Source: Candidatus Saccharimonadia bacterium (lineage in GTDB: Bacteria; Patescibacteriota; Saccharimonadia; Saccharimonadales; Saccharimonadaceae). From it: a DNA stretch of 36,325 bases. Numbering within the stretch: the stretch's first letter is position 1; every line of letters begins with the position of its first letter. Where the stretch lies: assembly GCA_023262335.1 (NCBI GenBank), contig JALRBE010000009.1:1-36325 (forward strand), given 5' to 3'. Positions 31,451-33,642 of the stretch are shown here, one piece after another. The notes below the pieces were generated by a model. That model ran no database searches, had not been told where the DNA came from, and saw only the letters and a program-made list of their open reading frames with translations. The position numbers and the translations under genes are program-made.

Positions 31451-32104
31451 ATGAGTATAGATATCTTGCAACTGGCAGTCGTTCTTGGGGTGATTCTCGT
31501 GTCCATGACGCTTCATGAGGCCATGCACGGCTTCGTGAGCTATTGGCTAGGTGACGATACGGCAAAATTACAGGGGCGGTTGACGCTGAATCCTATAAAG
31601 CATATCGATCCCTTCCTGACGATTCTCTTGCCGTTGACGCTGGCGATCGTGGGCGCGCCGATTTTTGGGGGTGCCAAGCCTGTGCCGTTCAATCCGGAAA
31701 GGGTACGAGGCGACGAATGGGGTGTCGCGGCTGTCGCGCTTGCCGGCCCCCTGACTAACTTGGTCCTGGCATTCGTCTTGTTCGGCGTTGGTACGCTGCT
31801 TGGCTTCAACCTTACGGATTACGGCTACGTGTCAGTCGAGGAAATGATCCTTACGTACGCCGTGTTCATTAATCTTGGGTTCTTTGTCTTTAACATGATT
31901 CCAGTGCCGCCGCTCGACGGTTCCAGGGTGCTCTACGCCCTTGCGCCCGACTTTGTCAGGAGGGGCATGGAGTACGTCGAACAATACGGGCTGATATTCG
32001 TATTCGCGATCGTCCTTCTCGCAAGTTCGGTCATAGGGTCGTTCATGCTTGCCGTGATTAGCGCTATCATCAGCGTCTTCGCCAAGATTTTCATGCTCGG
32101 ATAG
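31451..32104 (+). CDS. Site-2 protease family (M50) membrane metalloprotease
   Basis: HEAMHGF zinc motif, PVPPLDGSRVL (N-P-D-G like); start moved to second Met because -10 overlaps the first ATG. Confidence 0.88.
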   Translation: MSIDILQLAVVLGVILVSMTLHEAMHGFVSYWLGDDTAKLQGRLTLNPIKHIDPFLTILLPLTLAIVGAPIFGGAKPVPFNPERVRGDEWGVAAVALAGPLTNLVLAFVLFGVGTLLGFNLTDYGYVSVEEMILTYAVFINLGFFVFNMIPVPPLDGSRVLYALAPDFVRRGMEYVEQYGLIFVFAIVLLASSVIGSFMLAVISAIISVFAKIFMLG

Positions 32105-32106
32105 TC

Positions 32107-32112
32107 TATAAT
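32107..32112 (+). promoter_or_regulatory. -10 element TATAAT of the structured ncRNA candidate
   Basis: TATAAT 3 nt after M50 stop codon. Confidence 0.6.
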
Positions 32113-32118
32113 AGGTAC

Positions 32119-32266
32119 TGTCCCAAGGTCGCCATGACGTGTAAGATTTTCCTAACACAACGATAGGGAGTTCAAATGATTTATTTCCGTGGAAATACTT
32201 TGAGAGCACCCACCTTGCACTAACGCGGGGAATATCGTACGTCATGTGCCTCACCTTGGGGCTTTT
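32119..32266 (+). ncRNA. Rod-like structured ncRNA candidate (6S-like architecture)
   Basis: Nested perfect helices: 32122-32129/32253-32260, 32133-32140/32239-32246, 32160-32165/32233-32238, 32172-32176/32199-32203, 32182-32187/32192-32197; own -10. Confidence 0.65.
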
Positions 32267-32274
32267 ATGCGTTC

Positions 32275-32350
32275 CGGGATGTGGCGCAGTTGGTAGCGCG
32301 CACCGCTGGGGGTGGTGAGGCCGCTGGTTCAAGTCCAGTCATCCCGACCA
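32275..32350 (+). tRNA. tRNA-Pro(GGG), CCA encoded
   Basis: Loop CTGGGGG; acceptor CGGGATG/CATCCCG. Confidence 0.94.
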
Positions 32351-32388: not shown

Positions 32389-33267
32389 ATGAACCAACGA
32401 ATCGCTGTCCGTGCCGTCGTAAGGCAAGGTGACAAAACACTGCTGCTCCGGCGAGCGAACGGACGTGTTTCCATATTGGGCAAGTTCGAGCTGCCCGGCG
32501 GCAAAATAGCGTACGGCGAACAGCCTGAGGACGCGTTGCGCCGCTATCTTCATCATGATGTCGGCGTGCACGTACGCGTTGCCGAGCTTGCCGACGTCGT
32601 CACCTACGTGGATCGAGATGACCGGGATATTCAATATGCGATTATCGTGTACGCGGTTGAGATGGCAGAGGGGCACCATGCCTTGAAACTGAGCGGGAAT
32701 TACGACAAGTACGTTTGGCAATCGATGCAAAATACGCAACAAAATACGACAACCGATTTAACACAACTATTGTTGGGTATCATACAACAACAAGGAATTA
32801 CAGATAACAGTATAAAGTCATTTATTCATAACGATGTAGCAAAGTCTACGGAAAGCGATGCGATTATCTATACTGACGGTGGTTCCCGAGGTAATCCTGG
32901 TCCGTCCGCTTCCGGATTCGTCATCATGGATTCGTCTCAGAAAATCATTGCGGAGGGTGGCGAGTTCTTGGGTATCACCACGAACAACCAGGCTGAGTAT
33001 CACGGCGTGCGGATCGGCTTGGAGAAGGCAAAAGAGCTTGGGTTGAAGAAAATCGACTTCCGTCTGGACAGCATGCTCGTCGTCAATCAGATGAACGGTG
33101 TCTATTCGATCAAGAACAGGGATCTTTGGCCGATCAATGAGCGCATACGGGACCTCATGGGAAACTTCGAAAGCGTCACGTTCAGGCACGTTCCCAGGGA
33201 GTCGAACCAGCTAGCAGACGCGCAGGTGAACCGCACGCTCGATGCCCAAGAGCGAAGTGGTGTATAA
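32389..33267 (+). CDS. Nudix-like domain fused to RNase HI-like domain
   Basis: N-term FELPGGKIAYGEQPEDALRRYLHHDVGV Nudix-like; C-term IIYTDGGSRGNPGPSASGFV ... NNQAEYHGV ... HVPRESNQLADAQVN RNase HI. Confidence 0.88.
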   Translation: MNQRIAVRAVVRQGDKTLLLRRANGRVSILGKFELPGGKIAYGEQPEDALRRYLHHDVGVHVRVAELADVVTYVDRDDRDIQYAIIVYAVEMAEGHHALKLSGNYDKYVWQSMQNTQQNTTTDLTQLLLGIIQQQGITDNSIKSFIHNDVAKSTESDAIIYTDGGSRGNPGPSASGFVIMDSSQKIIAEGGEFLGITTNNQAEYHGVRIGLEKAKELGLKKIDFRLDSMLVVNQMNGVYSIKNRDLWPINERIRDLMGNFESVTFRHVPRESNQLADAQVNRTLDAQERSGV

Positions 33268-33275
33268 TAGCGACT

Positions 33276-33606
33276 GACAGTTCGTTAGATGATCGCTTTG
33301 CCTATGGCGAAGAGGAAAGTCCGGGCAGCGCAGGACATGACAGTTGCTAACGGCAACCGGGGGCAACCCTAGGGAAAGTGCCACAGAAACGAAACCGCCT
33401 CTTCGGAGGTAAGGGTGAAAGGAGTGGGGTAAGAGCCCACAGCGACATACGGCGACGTATGAAGGAGGTAAACCCTGTCAGCTGCAAGGAGGTCTGCGTC
33501 AAATGGGCGGTCCGTCCGCAGGCCGCTATCCGCTTGATCTTGCGAGCAATCGCAAGGCTAGATAGATGATCATCCACGACAGAACCCGGCTTACCGATGG
33601 GCTGTC
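33276..33606 (+). ncRNA. rnpB: RNase P RNA (class A)
   Basis: gaggaaagtccgggc ... gccacagaaacgaaaccgcc ... acagaacccggctta conserved cores; P1 gacag/ctgtc; -10 TATAAT at 33263. Confidence 0.95.
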
Positions 33607-33608
33607 AC

Positions 33609-33642
33609 CTAAAATGACCTCCGTTCACGGAGGTCATTTTAG
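33609..33642. terminator. Bidirectional terminator shared by rnpB and rplT
   Basis: ctaaaatgacctccg-ttca-cggaggtcattttag. Confidence 0.92.

Follow-up and report, generated by a model that had tools for sequence, protein, structure and literature searches.

Within the 36,325-nucleotide stretch of DNA analyzed here (the window), which belongs to a Candidatus Saccharibacteria (TM7) genome, a 6S-like RNA gene occupies approximately positions 32120-32266 (+), flanked by an M50 protease gene and tRNA-Pro. As a global transcriptional regulator, 6S RNA shuts off bacterial RNA polymerase by mimicking an open promoter. From structure and homology, we infer that the RNA encoded here very probably functions as a divergent 6S RNA of Saccharibacteria. 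Among the papers that we searched, none describes a 6S RNA from Saccharibacteria or from elsewhere in the candidate phyla radiation; an earlier TM7 prediction is possible.

Gene anatomy and conserved structure

The predicted gene is preceded by a -10 promoter box, TATAAT, at 32107-32112 (+). This box had been recognized in a first-pass annotation of the sequence and placed 3 nt after the M50 stop codon; the box is indeed present, but the spacing is 2 nt, as the stop ends at 32104. An exact TATAAT was conserved in 29 of 38 same-family and 22 of 39 same-order homologues, and at least five of its six positions were matched in 38/38 and 33/39, respectively. In nearly all homologues, a TATAAT-like box lies upstream of the closing stem at a spacing of 6-9 nt. 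Only the -10 box is conserved; a scan for the sigma-70 consensus did not detect a -35/-10 pair. On the other side, the closing stem is followed by a terminator-like UUUU run (32263-32266, +), an arrangement shared by the window and many relatives. With its ends predicted from the -10 box and the T-run, the RNA would be about 147 nt long, and R1, a covariance model built from close relatives, matched 32116-32268 with 141 bits. Sigma-70 family genes are encoded in the same genome. In a separate observation, two or three adjacent sigma-70 region 2 matches were located on contig C44 (23213-28184) of this genome (G000), with similar pairs in relatives, suggesting either several sigma factors of the RpoD type or a single split one.

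The folding energy of the RNA was -54.1 kcal/mol, in comparison to -39.6 ± 4.06 kcal/mol for dinucleotide shuffles (z = -3.57), and only 1 of 200 shuffles folded equally well. From the outside inward on the plus strand, a covarying closing stem pairs GUCCCAAGGU (32120-32129) with ACCUUGGGGC (32253-32262), followed by a covarying lower stem of CAUGACGU (32133-32140) and ACGUCAUG (32239-32246). Helix P2, formed by GAUUUUCC (32145-32152) and GGAAUAUC (32229-32236), is near-invariant in 30 relatives and displays covariation at the order level; its 5' arm is the predicted template of a product RNA. The 5' side of the central bubble, UAACACAACGAUA (32153-32165), is unpaired in the RNAalifold consensus. 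Beyond it, helix P3 joins GGGAGUUC (32166-32173) to GAGCACCC (32204-32211), where, across 77 sequences, GGG/CCC is nearly invariant and GUUC/GAGC covaries. The rod is capped by a strongly covarying apical hairpin, UAUUUC CGUG GAAAUA (32182-32197), and a small hairpin in the 3' side of the bubble, CCUUGC...GCGGGG (32213-32230), was identified from the fold and from counts of its pairs, the last two of which compete with P2. Among relatives, the blocks GATTTTCCT, CCACCT and GGAA are invariant.

Using a structure-blind alignment of 30 close homologues, we tested covariation against the named structure. Paired cells amounted to 90.8%, in comparison to 81.2 ± 0.6 in shuffles, and both-side changes at kept pairs were found in 149 cells against 49.3 ± 7.7 when shuffled, a value reached in none of 500 shuffles; the signal was lost when the partners were slid. 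In a second alignment of 77 homologues, which was made with the model and therefore leans towards the structure, both-side changes were present in 40 of 43 pairs. Applied unaided to this alignment, RNAalifold recovered the closing stem, the lower stem, a large open internal bubble, the GGG/CCC helix and the apical hairpin. Covarying stems thus flank an open bubble: the RNA is a long hairpin-like rod, mostly unpaired in its central bubble, as is characteristic of 6S RNA.

The structured non-coding RNA proposed in the first-pass annotation is therefore real, as judged by its fold energy, conservation and covariation. The helices that it had listed, CCCAAGGT/ACCTTGGG, CATGACGT/ACGTCATG, ACGATA/TATCGT, TATTTC/GAAATA and the GTGT/ACAC arm, all recur in the predicted fold. 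A further pair, TCAAA/TTTGA, is complementary as described, but the consensus at this place pairs GUUC with GAGC. All nested helices exist, but they do not form the one single rod that had been drawn, because ACGATA/TATCGT and GTGT/ACAC exclude the more conserved GATTTTCC/GGAATATC. Covariation was strong, and neither an unrelated RNA nor a coding gene, the matches that had been named as counting against the candidate, accounted for the locus. A coding gene was considered separately, since minus-strand open reading frames cross the region, but it was rejected because homologue indels are not multiples of three and conservation tracks the helices.

Genomic context bears on whether the RNA is independent of its neighbors. 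In 38/38 family and 33/39 order homologues, the RNA is preceded by the M50 gene in the same orientation. Instead of being independent, the RNA might belong to the transcript of the downstream tRNA-Pro or NUDIX-RNase H gene, as a leader or a processing element; this reading draws on the tRNA-Pro that starts 8 nt past the UUUU run in the window, on the tRNA-Pro(GGG) found directly 3' of the RNA in many loci, though not all, and on the NUDIX-RNase H gene located downstream in 33/38 family and 25/39 order homologues. However, many loci retain the RNA while tRNA-Pro is absent, distant or on the opposite strand, which led us to reject the tRNA-Pro leader; the downstream gene is likewise missing or elsewhere at some loci, and a T-run is often found at the end of the closing stem. 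Overall, we attach scarcely any credence to a leader. As to the neighbors themselves, the window encodes a fusion of NUDIX and RNase H domains at 32389-33267 (+; Pfam NUDIX 5.4e-11, RVT_3 4.4e-24) and a class A bacterial RNase P RNA at 33277-33609 (+; 258.5 bits). Of 20 order-level loci scanned, 14 had an RNase P RNA close to the 6S-like RNA.

Distribution and relation to known 6S RNAs

By blastn, the RNA was conserved in 38 of 101 genomes. R1 detected it in 129 of 160 relatives, in a single copy each; in the 31 relatives with no R1 match, the genome is in some cases incomplete or the RNA has drifted. A further model, R2, which was built from Saccharibacteria only, located the RNA in 118 of 287 Patescibacteria genomes sampled from the phylum. 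One sampled genome (G211) was the only one with two R2 matches (C1:6219-6348 and C16:2401-2531), possibly representing two 6S RNAs. A pattern search with the conserved core returned 25 loci in named genomes, mostly labelled Candidatus Saccharibacteria, TM7 or Patescibacteria, with a Candidatus Nanosynbacter and oral TM7 HOT-352 among them; generic labels were attached to a few, and one was labelled Chloroflexi, probably in error. These labels place the window in a Saccharibacteria genome.

A scan of the window at Rfam gathering thresholds returned no 6S RNA. The first-pass annotation had proposed a search with the 6S model RF00013, which yielded a match covering the whole model, but at 18.3 bits (E = 0.1 in a 351-base search) it fell below the cut-off of 46.4. 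Over the whole genome, RF00013 returned nothing at E ≤ 10, the window locus included, so that no second, canonical 6S RNA was seen. Orthologues matched more strongly: two same-order loci covered the full model with 39.5 and 32.4 bits (per-genome E = 5e-7 and 2.7e-5), both with RNase P RNA nearby and the former also with tRNA-Pro, as in the window, and two further order-level loci scored 36.4 and 29.9 bits. Among Rfam families, 6S gave the best match to the orthologues. The cut-off itself marks a limit of detection rather than describing the RNA.

Across the 287 Patescibacteria, RF00013 detected 19 loci at E ≤ 0.001, of which 3 exceeded the cut-off. With R2, 16 of the 19 were recovered at identical coordinates; eight of the RF00013 loci were also fetched, among them the three that exceeded the cut-off, and R2 found every one of these eight at E ≤ 7e-4. 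The two models derive from separate data, and their agreement on loci is therefore our main argument for homology. It also bears on whether the RNA might be a structured RNA confined to these bacteria, with only an outward resemblance to 6S and a different function. The sub-threshold score of the window and the distance of its sequence from E. coli 6S would suit such an RNA, but the concordance of RF00013 and the Saccharibacteria-only model on locus and boundaries (16/19) and the per-genome E of 5e-7 reached by orthologues speak against it, and we regard it as improbable. The earlier suggestion of a 6S-like RNA is thus supported, as far as sequence can tell, by the orthologue matches and the shared phylum loci, and the new family offered beside it is unlikely.

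The rod, closing stem, central bubble and apical arm are shared with E. coli 6S and RF00013, and the RF00013 alignment extends over the full length with the GGGAG and CACCCACCU blocks in register. E. coli 6S is longer, at 184 nt against about 147 nt here, and its sequence (ssrS) gave no meaningful match to R2, indicating that the sequences have diverged far and that homology across phyla rests on Rfam's model. Separately, a weak match to the Caulobacter sRNA family CC0196 was recorded at 32197-32224 (+; 10.8 bits), via CUUUGA..GCACCCACC; CC0196 RNA may share the 6S bubble motif.

The actinobacterial RNA Ms1 is structurally related to 6S and has a central bubble (PMC9130861). An Ms1-like RNA, binding the RNA polymerase core without a sigma factor and controlling the level of the enzyme, would share that kinship, and core and holoenzyme binding are indistinguishable by computation. 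However, Ms1 is about 300 nt long, with two extra hairpins, 5' and 3', and binds core polymerase (PMC9130861), whereas the RNA described here is about 147 nt long, has no extra hairpins in its consensus, and has orthologues whose best Rfam family is 6S. We thus assign an Ms1-like role a very small probability and favor a 6S RNA.

Two competing folds and a predicted product RNA

The conserved structure and the minimum-energy fold of the window differ around the bubble. In the open-bubble fold, P2 flanks the bubble. In the minimum-energy fold, ACGAUA (32160-32165, +) pairs with UAUCGU (32233-32238, +) in a collapse helix, GUGU...ACAC closes an alternative hairpin in the 5' side of the bubble (32139-32158, +), and the 3'-bubble hairpin is lengthened. 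The collapse helix excludes P2, as does the 5'-bubble hairpin, which also covers the template arm. The two folds are separated by 2.0 kcal/mol in the window, and across homologues an open distal bubble costs about 2.3 kcal/mol on average.

We compared the pairing energy of cognate arms with that of arms permuted among species, in family and order sets. The resulting z-scores were -5.3 (family) and -6.3 (order) for the 5'-bubble hairpin, -4.7 and -6.3 for P2, and -6.0 and -2.1 for the collapse helix. When arms were exchanged between nearest relatives in 38 pairs, thereby controlling for relatedness, cognate pairing was again better (p = 0.002 for the 5'-bubble hairpin, 0.002 for P2 and 0.0004 for the collapse helix). 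Column-wise counts for the alternative helices in the alignment of 30 homologues were barely above shuffles, so the case for a switch is carried by the pairing-swap tests, in which the arm boundaries were taken from the model alignment and the arms partly overlap. Collectively, these results make a two-fold switch likely, short of established.

The putative switch fits the published behavior of B. subtilis 6S-1, in which P2 unwinds, a 3'-bubble hairpin forms, and a collapse helix arises between the distal 5' bubble and the 3' strand of P2 (PMC8876501). The small 3'-side bubble hairpin and the position of the collapse helix are shared with 6S-1. By contrast, the 5' bubble of 6S-1 is open in the consensus, and a weak 5'-bubble hairpin predicted there was unconfirmed by probing (PMC8876501), whereas the hairpin described here lies over the template arm with compensatory pairing. 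This conserved 5'-bubble hairpin would be the new element of the switch.

By analogy, we predict a product RNA with the sequence 5'-GUUAGGAAAAUCUU, starting opposite C32156 in CCUAAC. The corresponding column is C or U in all 30 aligned sequences, so that the product RNA would start with a purine. In B. subtilis, the 6S-1 product RNA is GUUCGGUCAAAACU (PMC12005410) and initiates at C40 with GTP (PMC8876501); at the equivalent place, it reads GUUCGG.., against the predicted GUUAGG.. here.

Proposed mechanism and implications

In our proposed model, transcription from the gene's own -10 promoter would yield a rod of about 147 nt, and its central bubble would mimic an open promoter. This bubble would bind RNA polymerase carrying the housekeeping sigma factor and keep the enzyme away from DNA promoters. 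Once nucleotides are abundant, the polymerase may copy the 5' arm of P2 into the short product RNA, which would unzip P2, allowing the RNA to collapse into its second fold, with ACGAUA/UAUCGU and the lengthened 3'-bubble hairpin, and thereby to release the polymerase. Afterwards, the 5'-bubble hairpin may re-cover the template arm, or it may keep part of the free RNA inactive.

We further propose, tentatively and with rather less than even confidence, that saccharibacterial 6S RNA is a built-in two-state switch, in which a maintained 5'-bubble hairpin and the collapse helix compete with the polymerase-binding bubble, and that divergent 6S RNA is general across Patescibacteria and missed by current models. 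Through this competition, the free RNA would be able to hide the template of its own product RNA. The Rfam cut-off was reached in only 3 of 287 Patescibacteria, in comparison to 118 of 287 with R2, indicating that standard searches miss the RNA. If our assignment is true, models can now be built for annotating the 6S RNA of Patescibacteria, and, as relatives of the RNA occur in oral TM7 genomes, the proposal is testable in cultured strains. It would also mean that the very reduced genomes of these dependent bacteria retain RNA-based control of RNA polymerase.
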